This document shows positions 15,924 through 23,710 of a stretch of 32,190 nucleotides of DNA, piece after piece. The position numbers were made by a program, and so were the translations under genes. The stretch is from an uncultured Gammaproteobacteria bacterium. Lineage in GTDB: Bacteria > Pseudomonadota > Gammaproteobacteria > Pseudomonadales > UBA5518. The stretch is taken from contig CAIYPF010000146.1 in assembly GCA_903928015.1 (NCBI GenBank), forward strand, positions 1 through 32,190, given 5' to 3'. The stretch's first letter is position 1. Each line of letters opens with the position of its first letter. The notes beneath the pieces are model-generated. The model worked only from the letters and a program-made list of their open reading frames with translations, searched no databases and had not been told where the DNA came from.

Positions 15924-17408
15924 TCAGGCCTGCGCGAGGAGGTAGCGCAGCAGCAGGCCCACCGGACGTCCGGTGGCGCCCTTGGCTGCGCCCTGTTCCC
16001 AGGCCGTACCCGCGATGTCGAGGTGCGCCCATTTTTCGCCAGTGGCGAAGCGGGAGAGGAAGCAGGCCGCCGTCACGCTGCCCGCGCTCGGGCCGCCGAT
16101 GTTGGCCACGTCGGCGAAGTTGCTCTTCAACTGTTCCTGATAATCGTCCCAGACCGGCATGTGCCAGGCGCGGTCGTGGGCCTCGTTGCCCGCCGCGAGC
16201 AATTCCGCGGCGAGGGCGTCGTCGTTGCTGAAGAGTCCGCTCGCGTGCTTGCCCAGGGCCACCACGCAGGCGCCGGTCAGGGTGGCAATGTCGACGATGC
16301 TGCGCGGCTTGAAGCGCTTCGCGTAGGTGATGGCATCGCAGAGGATCAAGCGTCCTTCGGCATCGGTGTTCAGGATCTCGATGGTGATGCCGGCCATGCT
16401 CTTCACCACATCGCCCGGTCGTGTGGCGCTGCCGCTCGGCATGTTCTCGCAGGCCGCCACCACGGCCACCACGTTCAGCGCGGGAGCGGTCTCTGCCAGC
16501 GCCTGCATGGTGCCCAGCACCGATGCGGCTCCGCACATGTCGAACTTCATCTCGTCCATCGCGGCGCCCGGCTTCAGGCTGATGCCTCCCGAGTCGAAGG
16601 TGATGCCCTTGCCGACCAGCGCGTAGGGGCGCTCGTCCTTGGTGCCGCCACGGTACTCGAGCACGATCAGGCGCGCGGGTTCGCGTGTGCCTGCGCTGAC
16701 GCTCAGCAGCGAATGCATGCCCAGCGCGAACATCTGTTTTTCGTCGAGTACGCGGCAGCGCAGTCGCGTGTGGCGGCGGGCGAGCGCACGCGCCTGATCG
16801 GCGAGATGCGTGGGTGTACAGATGTTGGGCGGAGTGTTGCCGAGTTCCCGAGCGAGATTCATGCCGCGACCGATGGCGCCGCCTTCGACGAGCGCGGCAG
16901 AGAGGGCGCGCGCAGGCTTGGTTGCGAGCGCGACGGCTATCCGCGCCAGGCGCGCGGCAGGTTCGGGCTTGGACAGCGTACGGCTGTAGCGATAGCCGCT
17001 GGTCTCGGAGAGGATTCCGACCTGTCGCAGCAGCCATGCCTGATCGCGGTCTTTGACGTCCAGGCCGTCCGCGAGCAGCACGGCATCGGTTGTGCCGGTG
17101 GAGCGGACCAGCCCGAGTGCGGCCGACAGTGACTTGCGCCAGCCACCCGCATCCAGCGCCCCCGCTTTGCCCACGCCCATCAGCACCACCCTCGCTGCTG
17201 CGAGGCCGGGTAATGCGTGGGCGATCAGCGTTCGCCCGGCCGCCCCCGTGAAATGCTCCGCGGCGATCAGCTTTGACAGCCTCAGGCCGCAGGCGCGGTC
17301 CACGAGTCCTGCAGCGCCCTGCATGCTTCCGCCTTCGGTGACGGGAAGTACCAGGCAGCCGGTGCGCAGTGCGGCGGGATCGGTCACGGTTTTCAGTGAG
17401 AGTTGCAT
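15924..17408 (-). CDS. pepA: Leucyl aminopeptidase PepA (M17 family)
   Basis: Hexameric di-metal aminopeptidase of 494 residues that removes N-terminal residues from peptides in the cytoplasm; in E. coli the protein also binds DNA in recombination and regulation. The catalytic region has LVGKGITFDSGG with the metal-binding Lys/Asp, MKFDMCGAASV, and the signature NTDAEGRLIL. The N-terminal macro-like domain is present from QLSLKTV. The ATG at 17408 is preceded by a CCGGAG site at good spacing; the longer frame to 17465 has no such support. It is 16 bases upstream of holC. Confidence 0.97.
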   Translation of the reverse strand: MQLSLKTVTDPAALRTGCLVLPVTEGGSMQGAAGLVDRACGLRLSKLIAAEHFTGAAGRTLIAHALPGLAAARVVLMGVGKAGALDAGGWRKSLSAALGLVRSTGTTDAVLLADGLDVKDRDQAWLLRQVGILSETSGYRYSRTLSKPEPAARLARIAVALATKPARALSAALVEGGAIGRGMNLARELGNTPPNICTPTHLADQARALARRHTRLRCRVLDEKQMFALGMHSLLSVSAGTREPARLIVLEYRGGTKDERPYALVGKGITFDSGGISLKPGAAMDEMKFDMCGAASVLGTMQALAETAPALNVVAVVAACENMPSGSATRPGDVVKSMAGITIEILNTDAEGRLILCDAITYAKRFKPRSIVDIATLTGACVVALGKHASGLFSNDDALAAELLAAGNEAHDRAWHMPVWDDYQEQLKSNFADVANIGGPSAGSVTAACFLSRFATGEKWAHLDIAGTAWEQGAAKGATGRPVGLLLRYLLAQA

Positions 17409-17465
17409 GCTGGCTCCGGATGACGATGCGGGACGGGTGGACGGGACGATTATATGCCCCGGCAA

Positions 17466-17960
17466 TCAGCGCTTGGGCAGCACGATTACCCGTGTGCCCG
17501 TCAGGCGGTCGTGCCAGGCGCGGCGCTCGGGGTCGATCAGTATCCACCAGTAGCCTGCGCCCAGGCAGATAAAGGACAGCAGCGCGAGCCCCAGTCTTGC
17601 CAGGCCCGTCCGCGCGCCGATCAATTCCCCGTCTTCGGTCTCGAGCCGGAGGCGCCAGCTCTGCATGCCTAGCGTCTGGCCCGAACGCACCCAGAACCAC
17701 ACGAAGAACACCACCACCGCCGCCAAGAGGGGCAGTTGGAGAAGCGGGCCGGATGCGGCCCTGCCGCCGTGAGTCTGGAGCTGATCGGCGCCATTCAACC
17801 ACACGCGCAGACCGATCACGGCTGCGGTGACGGTCCACGTCACGGCAAAGACGAGAAGGCTGTCGTACAGCATCGCTCCCAAACGGCGTGCGAGACCTGC
17901 ACGTTCGTGTTGAGAGCTGTCTGGTGCGGGCTGTGGCATGCGGGTATCGTTGACGGCCAT
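17466..17960 (-). CDS. RDD family membrane protein
   Basis: Integral membrane protein of about 164 residues with the RDD domain: AGLARRLGAMLYDSLLVF at the first helix (the RR...YD pattern that names the family), a second hydrophobic stretch LLAAVVVFFVWFW, then SGQTLGMQSWRLRL, and a final helix before WHDRLTGTRVIVLPK. Some RDD proteins act in sodium/proton exchange, most are uncharacterised. The start is uncertain: ATG at 17960 or 17939, neither with a good ribosome-binding site; an upstream TTG at 18005 seems less likely. It precedes pepA by 57 bases on the same strand. Confidence 0.88.
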   Translation of the reverse strand: MAVNDTRMPQPAPDSSQHERAGLARRLGAMLYDSLLVFAVTWTVTAAVIGLRVWLNGADQLQTHGGRAASGPLLQLPLLAAVVVFFVWFWVRSGQTLGMQSWRLRLETEDGELIGARTGLARLGLALLSFICLGAGYWWILIDPERRAWHDRLTGTRVIVLPKR

Positions 17961-18006
17961 CGTAGGGCGCGAAGCCTCGGGCCGCGACGCGGCAGGGAGC
18001 CGCAAG

Positions 18007-18020: not shown

Positions 18021-18132
18021 GCGCGGCGCAAAGCAGCGTTAAACCTCCTCCCTCCACACTGCGTTCGCCAGTCGGGGAGGCGGTCCGGTGCAGTTCATTT
18101 CAGCGGTGAGGCGATCGCAGGGGTCAGATGGC

Positions 18133-18822
18133 ATGCGCATTCTCGTGATCGAGGACGACGCCAGTGTGCTCGACTACATCAGCAGGGGGCTGCGCGAGAG
18201 CGGCTTCGCTGTGGATCAGTCGGCCGACGGCAAGGACGGTCTGTACAAAGCCAGCGCGGAGGCTTACGACGCCCTCGTGGTGGATCGGATGCTGCCGGGC
18301 GTTGACGGCCTCACCATCGTGCGCACGCTGCGCGGCGCCGAAAACCACACGCCGGCCCTGATCCTGAGCGCACTCGGCGAGGTCGATGACCGTGTCAAAG
18401 GCCTGCGCGCCGGCGGTGATGACTACCTCGTCAAACCCTTTGCCTTCGCCGAATTGCTGGCCCGCATCGAGGCCCTGCTGCGGCGCAAGGAGTCTGCCGG
18501 ACCGGTCACGCGATTGCGCGTGGCGGATCTCGAGATGGACCTGCTCTCTCACAAGGTGGCGCGCGCCGGCAAGTCGCTGAACCTCCAGCCCCGCGAGTTC
18601 CGCCTGCTGGAATACCTGATGAAGCACGCGGGCCAGGTGGTCACCCGCACCATGCTCCTCGAGAACGTCTGGGACTATCACTTCGATCCCCAGACCAACG
18701 TCATCGACGTGCACATCAGCCGGTTGCGCCAGAAGCTCGACAAGGAGTTCGAGCGCCCCTTGCTGAAAACTGTGCGCGGTGCCGGTTACATGCTGGAGGA
18801 GCCCGAGCCCGTGGCGGGTTGA
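18133..18822 (+). CDS. OmpR/PhoB-family response regulator
   Basis: Cytosolic DNA-binding regulator of 229 residues. The receiver domain has the acidic pocket (Glu7-Asp8-Asp9), phospho-acceptor Asp51 in VVDRMLPG, Ser79 and Lys101 in LVKPF. The winged-helix domain (about 130-225) contains LNLQPREFRLLEYL and VIDVHISRLRQKLD with the final KTVRGAGYML. The DRMLPG form is like that of CopR/CusR-type regulators, but the signal cannot be named. I choose the ATG at 18133 because the receiver fold begins there; an in-frame start at 18088 adds 15 unconserved residues. The kinase gene follows after 12 bases. Confidence 0.95.
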   Translation: MRILVIEDDASVLDYISRGLRESGFAVDQSADGKDGLYKASAEAYDALVVDRMLPGVDGLTIVRTLRGAENHTPALILSALGEVDDRVKGLRAGGDDYLVKPFAFAELLARIEALLRRKESAGPVTRLRVADLEMDLLSHKVARAGKSLNLQPREFRLLEYLMKHAGQVVTRTMLLENVWDYHFDPQTNVIDVHISRLRQKLDKEFERPLLKTVRGAGYMLEEPEPVAG

Positions 18823-18834
18823 CGGTCCGCGCGC

Positions 18835-20214
18835 GTGAAATTGCTGAGGATTTTCCGCACCAGCCTTTTCCGGTACACGCTGAACTACATGGTGGGCGTG
18901 AGCCTCGCGGTGTTCGTGGTACTCGCCCTGGTCTACGGTTCCTACACGCTGGGATTCTTCCGCGAACTGAACAGTCTGATCGCCCGCGAGACGTCTGCGA
19001 TCGCCAGCCGTAATGCGAGCGGCGGCATCCCGGCAGTTTCCGCCTCCATCGCCGAGCGCATCCAGGCCCCCACCTTTCCCCGACTTTTCTACCTGCTGGT
19101 GGATGCGCGCGGCGAGAAGCTCGCGGGCAATCTGGCACGCTGGCCCGAGCGCCTCGGGCCGGCCGAAGACTGGATAGGGCCGGGCGTTGCCATACGCCAG
19201 TGGACCGAGACGGGCTTCCGTTTCGAGTTCGTGGGCTCCACGACGGTGTTTGCCGGAGGCGAGCGTCTGCTGGTGGCGCGCCACTACCAGGACATCACCG
19301 AGTACCTGCGCCTCACGCTTACCGTTGTTACGCAGTCGATGCTCGCGACCATCGTGCTTGGCAGCATCGGTGCCGCGTTGCTTGCGCTGCTGATGGAACG
19401 TCGCATCGTTGGCGTCAACCGTTCCATAGCCGGGATACTCTCGGGGGACCTCGCGCAGCGCATTCCGGTGGTGAACGTCAACGACGACGATTTCGCGCGG
19501 CTGATCGTGAACTTCAATCACATGCTCGATCGCATCGAGCAACTGATGGAGGGTGTGAAGCAACTCTCGGACAACATCGCCCATGACCTTCGCACCCCGC
19601 TCACGCGGCTGCGCAACGGGCTGGCCAGCGTGGAGCTCGACGAACTGGGCGAGCAACGCGGCACCGTAGCCGGACTGATCGAGGAAGCAGATGCCCTGCT
19701 AGCCACCTTCAGCGCGCTGCTGCGGATCGCGCAGATAGAGTCCGGAAACCGGCGCGCAGCCTTCGCGCCCAATGATCTCTCCACGATCCTCGCCGATGTC
19801 TGCGAGTTCTACGAACCGCTCGCCGCTGACCGCGGGCTTCAGATCCGCATGCGCCTTGTGCCCTCCTGTCGCGCGATCTGTGACCGGGACCTCCTGTTCC
19901 AGGCTTTCGCGAATCTCCTCGACAACGCCATCAAATACTCCCCGCCGGGAGGGGATGTCGATGTGGTGATAGAGGAGGGCGCGGCAGGCCCCGAGGTGGT
20001 GTTCGCCGACCAGGGTCCCGGCATTCCGGCGGCCGAGCGGCAGAAGGTATTCCAGCGCTTCTACCGGGTAGAGGAGAGCCGCAGCGGGCACCCCGGTAAC
20101 GGGCTGGGTCTCAGCCTGGTGCAGGCGGTGGTCACGCTCCACGGCGGTCGTGTGAGCCTGTCGGACAACGCGCCGGGCCTGCGCGTCAGCGTGACGTTGC
20201 CCCGGGGCGGCTGA
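18835..20214 (+). CDS. Sensor histidine kinase, partner of the adjacent response regulator
   Basis: Inner-membrane kinase of 459 residues. There is a first membrane helix at about 20-40, a periplasmic domain of about 125 residues, a second helix at about 165-187, a HAMP linker (ERRIVGVNRSIAGIL), the dimerisation box SDNIAHDLRTPLTRLRN with phospho-acceptor His250, and the ATPase domain with FANLLDNAIKY, DQGPGIP and GNGLGLSLV. All catalytic boxes are present. The periplasmic sensor region has no motif I recognise. Starts with GTG, 12 bases after the regulator stop, so the two genes are likely cotranscribed. It ends 6 bases from the convergent neighbour. Confidence 0.95.
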   Translation: MKLLRIFRTSLFRYTLNYMVGVSLAVFVVLALVYGSYTLGFFRELNSLIARETSAIASRNASGGIPAVSASIAERIQAPTFPRLFYLLVDARGEKLAGNLARWPERLGPAEDWIGPGVAIRQWTETGFRFEFVGSTTVFAGGERLLVARHYQDITEYLRLTLTVVTQSMLATIVLGSIGAALLALLMERRIVGVNRSIAGILSGDLAQRIPVVNVNDDDFARLIVNFNHMLDRIEQLMEGVKQLSDNIAHDLRTPLTRLRNGLASVELDELGEQRGTVAGLIEEADALLATFSALLRIAQIESGNRRAAFAPNDLSTILADVCEFYEPLAADRGLQIRMRLVPSCRAICDRDLLFQAFANLLDNAIKYSPPGGDVDVVIEEGAAGPEVVFADQGPGIPAAERQKVFQRFYRVEESRSGHPGNGLGLSLVQAVVTLHGGRVSLSDNAPGLRVSVTLPRGG

Positions 20215-20220
20215 ACGTCC

Positions 20221-20970
20221 TCAGAACCGCGGCGCTTCGATCGACAGGCCGCTGGTGTCCGGGTCCAGCGGCTTGCGGTCGGGTTTGATTTCGTCGAGAG
20301 GCGTTCCGGGTGGCGCGAGGCTGATGCCATCGAGATCGGGGAGCGCGACGGGCGGTCTCTCGTCTGCCGGAGCCAGCAGTTCCCCGGGCGCTGCCAGCGA
20401 GAGCGCGCTGGTGTCCGGCGGGGGTGGCGGCGCAGGAGAGCTGCGGCCTTCCCGCAGGTCCGCGCCGGGAGCGGCGATGCTGATGTGAGAGGTATCGGGC
20501 GCGGGAGGCGGCGTGAGTGCCGTACCGGCGTTGGCCATGAAGGGCGAGGCAAGCGTGATGCCGCTGGTGTCCACTGCAACGGCCTCGATGGCGCGCCGCT
20601 CGTGCGGGGCGAGCATGTCGGCCCCGGCGGGTGCCAGGCTGAGTGCACTTCCGGGCGTGGATGTCGCAGCCACCGGCGCGGGTGCCGCAGGTGCTGGCGC
20701 AGGCGGGGCCGACGTTGCGGCGGCAGCAGGCTCGACGGCAGCGGCGCGCAGGATTGCCCGTGCGCCGGCGCGCTCAAGCGCGGTCTCGTACTTGATGGCC
20801 GTGTCCCTGTCGGTGCCTCTCTTGAGCACGTGGGTGCCGCCATCCATCAGGCGTGCCACGGTGTCGGGCGAGGCCTTGAACAGTCGTGCGATGTTCTCTT
20901 CCACGCTCTCGCGGGAAAAGCCCTGCAGGATCTCGCCGGCGAACAGGATGTCGAAACGGGGTTCAGTCAT
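20221..20970 (-). CDS. Uncharacterised protein: small N-terminal domain plus six short DTSxLSLAxPG-type repeats
   Basis: Protein of 249 residues, no signal peptide or membrane span, so probably cytosolic. Residues 5-74 form a compact alpha/beta-like region (FDILFAGEILQGFSRESV, then LFKASPDTVARLM and YETALERAGARA). I recall similar modules at the start of uncharacterised proteobacterial proteins, but cannot name a function. Residues 75-105 are Ala/Pro-rich. From 107 to 249 a motif recurs six times: SALSLAPAGADM, DTSGITLASP, DTSHISIAAPGADL, DTSALSLAAPGELL, DLDGISLAPPGTPL and DTSGLSIEAPRF, spaced 25-28 residues apart. The ATG at 20970 has a GAGGGG site; it is divergent from the AraC-type gene. 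Confidence 0.85.
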   Translation of the reverse strand: MTEPRFDILFAGEILQGFSRESVEENIARLFKASPDTVARLMDGGTHVLKRGTDRDTAIKYETALERAGARAILRAAAVEPAAAATSAPPAPAPAAPAPVAATSTPGSALSLAPAGADMLAPHERRAIEAVAVDTSGITLASPFMANAGTALTPPPAPDTSHISIAAPGADLREGRSSPAPPPPPDTSALSLAAPGELLAPADERPPVALPDLDGISLAPPGTPLDEIKPDRKPLDPDTSGLSIEAPRF

Positions 20971-22855: not shown

Positions 22856-23710
22856 ATGTCAGAACTCTCCGTCGAGGTCACCCGCGAGAACGCCCAGCAG
22901 GCGCTCATCGATGCCTCTTTCAAGCAGCCCGTACTGGTCGATTTCTGGGCTGACTGGTGCGCGCCCTGCAAGGCGCTGCTGCCCATCCTCGAGAAACTCG
23001 TGCGCGAGAACCAGGGCAATCTGCTTCTCGCCAAGGTGAACTGCGACGAGCAGCAGATGATCGCCGGCCAGTTCGGCGTGCGCAGCCTGCCCACCGTCAT
23101 TCTCATGAAAGACGGCCAGCCCGTGGACGGTTTTGTCGGCGCACAACCGGAGTCTGCGGTGCGTGCCATGCTCGAGAAGCACCTTCCCAAGCCCTGGGAC
23201 GTGCTGCTTGCCGAGGCGCTGCGCCTGCTCGATGGCGGGGATCCAACCGCTGCGGCCGTGCCGGCTCGCGCCGCCTGGGAGCAGTCGGCCAAGCGCCCCG
23301 ACATCGGCAAGGTCTATGCGGAAATCCTGATCCGGACCTCCCGTCTGGAAGATGCCCAGGTGGTGCTGGCAGCCATACCGATGGTCGAGCAGGACGCCGA
23401 CTACGAGCGGCTGATCGCTGAACTCGAACTGAAGCAGCAGGCCTCCGACACCCCCGAGATCCAGTCGCTGCTGTCGGCCCTCGAGAAGGACCCGGACAAC
23501 AAGGACCTGAGCTTCCAGCTGGCGGTTCAGTTCAGTCAGGCAGGGCGTCAGCGCGAGGCGCTGGAGTTGTTGTTCTCGATCATCAGCACGGACCGTGAGT
23601 TCCGTGGCGGGGAGGCGCGCAAGACGCTGCTCGATATCATCCGAGCGCTCGGCAAGGGCGATGCCCTTGCCGCGGAGTACCAGCGCAAGCTCTTCTCGCT
23701 GATGTACTGA
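22856..23710 (+). CDS. cnoX: CnoX/YbbN-type thioredoxin-TPR co-chaperone
   Basis: Cytosolic protein of 284 residues with an N-terminal thioredoxin domain (residues about 1-110) and a C-terminal TPR-like helical region (LSFQLAVQFSQAGRQREALELL). In E. coli this protein partners with GroEL/DnaK under oxidative chlorine stress and has lost the redox CxxC; here the active site WCAPC (34-38) is intact, as in Caulobacter, so it may also reduce disulfides. The cis-proline loop is RSLPTVIL. The ATG at 22856 has an AGGAA site. It ends 4 bases from the convergent trhP. Confidence 0.92.
   Translation: MSELSVEVTRENAQQALIDASFKQPVLVDFWADWCAPCKALLPILEKLVRENQGNLLLAKVNCDEQQMIAGQFGVRSLPTVILMKDGQPVDGFVGAQPESAVRAMLEKHLPKPWDVLLAEALRLLDGGDPTAAAVPARAAWEQSAKRPDIGKVYAEILIRTSRLEDAQVVLAAIPMVEQDADYERLIAELELKQQASDTPEIQSLLSALEKDPDNKDLSFQLAVQFSQAGRQREALELLFSIISTDREFRGGEARKTLLDIIRALGKGDALAAEYQRKLFSLMY

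Follow-up and report, generated by a model that had tools for sequence, protein, structure and literature searches.

Computational evidence for a domain distantly homologous to the C-terminal domain of ribosomal L7/L12, joined to a tail of conserved, regularly spaced motifs in Gammaproteobacteria

A 32,190-nucleotide stretch of DNA from an uncultured gammaproteobacterium of the order Pseudomonadales (the window) encodes a protein that joins a compact N-terminal part to a tail of short repeats, and the question is what these two parts are and what the combination does. The open reading frame with the repeats lies on the minus strand and specifies 249 amino acids plus a stop (ATG at 20970, stop at 20221-20223). 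A longer open reading frame of 346 amino acids (to 21261) is not preferred because homologues align from the ATG at 20970. The gene was divided as follows.

20221..20970, minus strand: whole gene, 249 amino acids plus stop; homologues align from the same start
20737..20970, minus strand: N-terminal domain (ND), residues 1-78; homology to the ribosomal L7/L12 C-terminal domain supported by AF2, Foldseek, VIA and profile-profile comparison
20656..20736, minus strand: Ala/Pro-rich linker, residues 79-105; lowest AF2 confidence (pLDDT means 36-41 in residues 81-110)
20611..20655, minus strand: motif copy 1, residues 106-120; a half copy that lacks D-T
20572..20610, minus strand: segment after copy 1, residues 121-133; HERR/DERR common to near relatives in the alignments
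20530..20571, minus strand: motif copy 2, residues 134-147; from sequence, D-core pattern
20455..20496, minus strand: motif copy 3, residues 159-172; by eye, the copy that varies least in the genus
20374..20415, minus strand: motif copy 4, residues 186-199; from sequence, D-core pattern
20296..20337, minus strand: motif copy 5, residues 212-225; reads DLD
20224..20259, minus strand: motif copy 6, residues 238-249; shortened by the C-terminus

The first-pass annotation of this DNA had described a folded-looking N-terminal region of about 70 residues, and structure prediction bears this out. In the AF2 model (built on 11 sequences) the ten-residue pLDDT means lie at 80-94 over residues 1-80, which predicts a folded ND, and the secondary structure elements follow the order strand-helix-helix-strand-helix-strand. 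A Foldseek search of the PDB with the whole model placed L7/L12 chains at ranks 1-5 (best E 2.7e-3, probability 1.00) and ClpS thereafter, none of them at E 0.001 or lower. With VIA, E. coli L7/L12 (1ctf, Z 9.1) was tied with ClpS (Z up to 9.0); mitoribosome chains, taken for L12, reached Z 9.6, a protein titled as malarial (4o2x) Z 8.0 and PBP3 Z 6.4, values to be read beside VIA's own note that models without a clear match reach best Z scores of 7-8. The fold of the ND is that of both L12 and ClpS, and it is the sequence, not the fold alone, that chooses between them.

When the family profile (A1) was compared with the PDB, all eight matches were L7/L12 (E 0.027-0.4), and the first natural match of an ND-only profile was again L7/L12 (E 0.0012). 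Designed TIM barrels rank above L7/L12 in the PDB lists and were disregarded, as their score is summed over several identical repeats. Profile-profile comparison of the ND with 20 L12 rows gave 95.8% (E 7e-9, 68 columns), and a smaller ND alignment gave 92.7% over 51 columns. In a run against 14 L12 rows the value was 94.1%, compared with 0.07-1.84% for ten column-permuted L12 controls and 0.08-0.11% when either side was reversed. Against 20 ClpS rows the match was weak (4.8%, and 1.5% with the smaller ND alignment). A search of the class with the family profile also reached short open reading frames that read as rplL in six fetched genomes. Overall, distant homology of the ND to the L7/L12 C-terminal domain is supported by computation, a relationship that was missed when the first-pass annotation stated that no known function came to mind.

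The Pfam model of bL12 (PF00542, Ribosomal_L12) sees this relationship dimly. It matched the ND genes of 55 related genomes at E 5e-4 to 0.1 only, and this search proves nothing by itself because many open reading frames of about 290-300 amino acids score alike. Among 22 family members, nine match PF00542 weakly (E up to 1, best 0.0047), and the model is absent among the matches listed up to E 10 for the window protein. The exception among the ND relatives is a protein of 89 amino acids (L223:570-836, genome G038), which consists of an ND plus one terminal DGLSII motif and passes the PF00542 cut-off (27.4 versus 25.9 bits). This minimal protein bridges the ND family to L12. Another short open reading frame (93 amino acids, G053:C1:1017932-1018009) also scores above the PF00542 cut-off, over profile positions 11-36 only.

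The ND protein is not an L12. It shares with bL12 the beta-alpha-alpha-beta-alpha-beta fold and the profile match described above, but the two differ in architecture: the N-terminal domain of bL12 dimerises and binds uL10, whereas the ND of the window protein starts at the first residues with no domain before it and is followed by the motif tail. The rplL gene of the same genome is found elsewhere (G000:C3:13009-13209, E 4.8e-31). The surface differs as well. L12 residues K65, V66, I69, K70, R73 and K84 are those that contact the translation GTPases. The positions aligned with V66, I69, K70, R73 and K84 are invariant in 20 out of 20 L12 rows and mostly replaced in the tail-type NDs; at the K65 position, L and P are commonest in the family and the window protein has a conservative R, the only basic residue of the set that its ND keeps. 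Since the factor-contact residues are replaced, the ND should bind something other than translation factors, presumably a different partner. D54, T57, K60 and Y61 in helix three, and the LFSG turn, are better conserved in the tail-type NDs than in the membrane-type NDs described below, which may mark another binding face. As for ClpS (PF02617), the fold is the same by Foldseek and VIA but the profile-profile match is weak, no ClpS match was listed in Pfam scans of the window protein and 22 family members, and PF02617 matches above the cut-off in the relatives sit at other places than the ND genes.

The tail of the window protein contains six copies of a short motif, at residues 106 (PGSALSLAPAGADML, without D-T), 134 (DTSGITLASPFMAN), 159 (DTSHISIAAPGADL), 186 (DTSALSLAAPGELL), 212 (DLDGISLAPPGTPL) and 238 to the chain end (DTSGLSIEAPRF). 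The copies follow each other in steps of 28, 25, 27, 26 and 26 residues, in agreement with the six copies at 25-28-residue steps reported at first reading. The D-T-S core that was said to be kept is found in its strict form in four out of six copies, the first copy lacking D-T and the fifth reading DLD; a half copy like copy 1 (xLSLAPxGxxL) also occurs in several relatives. Five matches to the D-core were counted in this tail, compared with a mean of 0.012 and a maximum of 1 in 20,000 shuffles of the same tail.

Across the family the motif core reads D-[TVIL]-S-x-[LI]-[STD]-[LVM]-A-x-x-G-x-x-L, usually with two to six motifs per tail. A total of 183 D-cores were found in 65 tails (mean 1.3, maximum 6 in 500 shuffles), and these tails come mostly from searches that included the tail, which inflates the share of motif-bearing proteins; the ND-only census given below avoids this bias. 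No D-core was found in 5 of the tails, one in 4, two in 18, three in 18, four in 11 and five in 9. The regular spacing holds, with 87 out of 123 steps of 25 or 26 residues and a further 17 of 27-28. In the 87 units with steps of 25-26 residues the profile is D (82), T/L/I/V, S (64), x, L/I, S/D/T, L/M/V, A (62), E/P, P/V/A, G (77), x, x, L (57). In 34 out of 60 core-bearing tails the last core is followed by just 1-3 residues, so that the partial repeat noted at the C-terminus of the window protein is a common feature of the family.

The suggestion that each copy is under selection fits the divergence within the genus. Mean pairwise identity among six members is 0.64 for the ND, 0.63 for the cores, 0.47 for the spacers and 0.43 for the linker (which here takes in copy 1), and pN/pS in the closest pair is 0.12, 0.15, 0.30 and 0.63 for ND, core, spacer and linker, respectively. 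The other 14 pairs add little (pS about 0.45-0.8), their core and ND ratios partly overlapping the spacer ratios. Sequence comparison thus supports motif cores that are kept by selection, about as conserved as the ND. AF2 placed no strand in the tail, either with the ND or alone (pTM 0.16 alone), in models built on only 11 and 9 sequences. The tail is predicted to be unstructured, and the shallow alignments leave room for folding on a partner. That a region predicted to be disordered should hold short motifs in such a conserved and evenly spaced array is, in our view, unusual for bacteria.

Relatives of the window protein are present in 38 of the 55 related genomes, and an ND-only profile matches at E 1e-5 or better in 41 of the 55. 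This ND-only search returned 61 distinct open reading frames, of which 36 are tail-type (34 by script, L194 and L218 by eye) and 18 carry membrane segments by a hydropathy threshold; the remainder comprises the minimal L223 and six others, among which three have CxxC pairs that resemble those of zinc ribbons. The first-pass annotation had named homologues that keep the N-terminal module ahead of a random tail as the finding that would speak against its reading. This is not the pattern seen among the tail-type relatives, but 25 of the 61 ND proteins have a different C-terminal part or almost none. Within the class, the ND profile matches 79 out of 339 genomes (at least one match, in G057, being rplL) and the tail profile 41 out of 339, the latter having been built from 9 rows so that distant tails can escape it.

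The partners to which the ND is fused are varied. A Pfam scan of ten ND proteins (only L086 being from the order of the window) gave DUF898 (two proteins), DUF805, Castor/Pollux with RCK, M48 and DUF7847 above the cut-off, DUF2628 (two proteins) and one zinc ribbon below it, and no match for two. The 11 named relatives are metagenome bins, mostly of gammaproteobacterial groups. The ND is widespread, and the copies of Pfam and NCBIfam that were used yielded no model dedicated to it. N-terminal cytosolic modules such as GYF_2 or SHOCT, probably of other folds, are placed in small membrane proteins much as the ND is, as a small domain ahead of varied membrane domains. Now that it can be placed by fold and ancestry, the ND offers a first handle on unnamed membrane proteins that bear it. 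In one of these (L080:1917-4301) it heads a Castor/Pollux-type ion channel. Another open reading frame (L075:1384-3327) has four tandem NDs, a linker repeating a GKANFLSDADN-like string and a long hydrophobic stretch, and gave no Pfam match.

The tail was found together with the ND. In 39 of the 41 genomes of the class with a tail match, the match coincides with the place of an ND when the two lists are compared by eye. In G336 it lies beside a masked stretch with the C-terminal half of an ND visible, and in G368 a fragmented tail lies near an ND fragment on one short contig. The tail-type gene of the latter genome (L238) is in pieces in different frames, either broken or mis-assembled. Among the 55 relatives, tail matches are present in 34 genomes and all are at an ND place (34/34). 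One extra tail match (G005:C296, E 0.0065) contains a stop and was taken as chance. Tail matches accompany the ND wherever this can be checked. The reverse does not hold: long ND open reading frames occur in some genomes that gave no tail match. In the window genome the ND has a single match, and an obligatory pair of hub and client is disfavoured on both counts.

A similar single motif follows some of the membrane-type NDs. Within the 70 residues that follow the ND, 12 out of 32 membrane-type proteins (a set that leaves out the tail-type L071) contain the loose pattern [WLIFM][STDG][LVIM][AVEDST], compared with 4.07 in shuffles (P 0.0003), and the reversed pattern occurs in 6 out of 32 (P 0.21); the pattern was chosen after examples had been seen, the rows are related and several of the 12 come from one genome. 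One of the 12 matches (L073) is not LSL-like, and 20 of the 32 linkers lack the motif. A stricter pattern (11/32, null 0.23) was devised after viewing the linkers and is not counted as evidence. Scored against the tail-type profile, the motif-bearing membrane-type NDs reach a median of 61.8 bits and the other 20 one of 48.0 bits (P 0.028). Shared descent of ND and linker could explain this association, in which case the pair would still be old.

Library searches gave the family no name. The window protein has one Pfam match under the cut-off (E 0.059) and no match in NCBIfam, where 22 family members touched five families with one member each (best E 0.00074). PHROGs returned weak matches only (best E 0.022). 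A defence system was considered and rejected, with no PADLOC match for three family proteins including that of the window, and so was phage or plasmid cargo, tblastn having found nothing in the phage or plasmid collection. A literature search with the motif strings, with L12-like and ClpS-like domains and with the domain combinations found nothing tied to the ND-tail family, and the main text of PMC9427106 contained neither of two terms looked for. In the databases searched (Pfam, NCBIfam, PHROGs and PADLOC) the family has no name, and it may have one in other libraries. We rate it as a known fold that occurs here in a new setting and bears a tail of a new kind.

What the protein does can be framed by the two alternatives that the first-pass annotation offered for the repeats, docking sites for one partner or strands of a small repeat structure. 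The docking reading fits best, and we give an even chance to a cytosolic adaptor whose serial motifs dock one kind of partner at several sites. The window gene product would be a soluble adaptor, its ND a repurposed homologue of the L7/L12 C-terminal domain, which on the ribosome recruits translation factors, and the Pro/Ala-rich, predicted-disordered string of motifs would offer multiple docking sites to one kind of partner. The likeliest partner may be the ND itself or a protein common to ND proteins, because the tail is found with the ND and a similar single motif follows some membrane-type NDs. Such a tail protein would gather several copies of the partner, with the copy number setting the valency. 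Against this reading as a whole stand the AF2 monomer, which puts no tail strand on the ND, steps of 25-26 residues that are tighter than plain docking needs, whole-model matches that stay above E 0.001 in Foldseek, the best Z of 7-8 that VIA's note allows models without a clear match, the 20 membrane-type linkers without a motif and the ND genomes without a tail match. The regular steps (87 out of 123), the tendency of arrays to start and stop mid-unit and the preference of the spacers for V at -6 (56 counts) and P, I or V at -1 would suit instead repeats that fold as a small beta structure with one strand (xLSLA) per turn of 25-26 residues, a fold that might need the ND or another chain to form. 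We consider this rather unlikely: AF2 predicts no tail strand, alone or with the ND (from shallow alignments of 9-11 sequences), the spacers contain Pro runs, and D-cores number just one or two in 22 out of 65 tails, few for a solenoid.

A homotypic arrangement, counted within or beside the docking reading, would have motif peptides bound to the ND through strand addition, the tail protein thereby cross-linking ND proteins, those of the membrane included. The coincidence of tail and ND places, the loose motif that 12 of 32 membrane-type proteins carry behind NDs closer in score to the tail-type profile, and the ND with one terminal motif in L223 all speak for it, but the AF2 monomer has no contact between ND and motif, common descent of ND plus linker would look alike and 20 of 32 linkers lack the motif, which leaves it a minor possibility. 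A more ambitious version, to which we give slightly less credit still, is a so far unrecognised gammaproteobacterial interaction system built on a ribosome-derived, L12-type domain that would bind an LSLxP-type motif and also stand next to it, with ND membrane proteins clustered from the cytosol; if true, the membrane proteins would carry one ND and one motif each, the tail protein would cluster them and the repeat number would be a tunable valency. Very improbable is a mimic of the ribosomal stalk, whose ND still binds a GTPase or the ribosome with the tail as a tether. It draws on the homology to the L12 C-terminal domain, described as the common site for translational GTPases in PMC10931766, and it has against it the mostly replaced positions of V66, I69, K70, R73 and K84 in the tail-type NDs, the genome's own rplL and the occurrence of the ND ahead of membrane domains. 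Near-identical repeats in some lineages (L048, L057) and the Pro/Ala-rich spacers would be expected of a plain spacer that tandem duplication has spread and that binds nothing, but the cores are conserved like the ND and recognisable across families, and we hold this explanation, too, to be remote.

The adaptor candidate appears to be encoded by a stand-alone gene, since its neighbours recur only among near relatives, besides scattered matches. Its convergent neighbours in the window are as follows.

18835..20214, plus strand: sensor histidine kinase, convergent neighbour; HisKA and HATPase_c, with HAMP just under the cut-off
18088..18822, plus strand: OmpR-type response regulator, adjoining the kinase; domain match

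The convergent kinase and response regulator are common to 7 out of 27 loci, and RDD and PepA follow in 8 out of 27; all loci that share either pair belong to the order of the window, and the link to the kinase is weak. A second comparison took in 35 loci, 15 of which also belong to the set of 27; there, apart from scattered matches at unlike places, a neighbour is repeated only between two close relatives or within small groups of them. On these two comparisons an operon partner was rejected. Genes of a single cluster, identified in L036 by Pfam as LptF/LptG, sit between the pepA and RDD genes in L036, L037, L093, L095 and L096; in the window (15924-18005) and the genus member L112, RDD and PepA adjoin with none of the LptF/LptG-cluster genes between them. 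Elsewhere in the window (22856-23710) a thioredoxin domain followed by TPR-type repeats (PF00085, PF14561) is encoded beside the gene for the tRNA hydroxylase TrhP.
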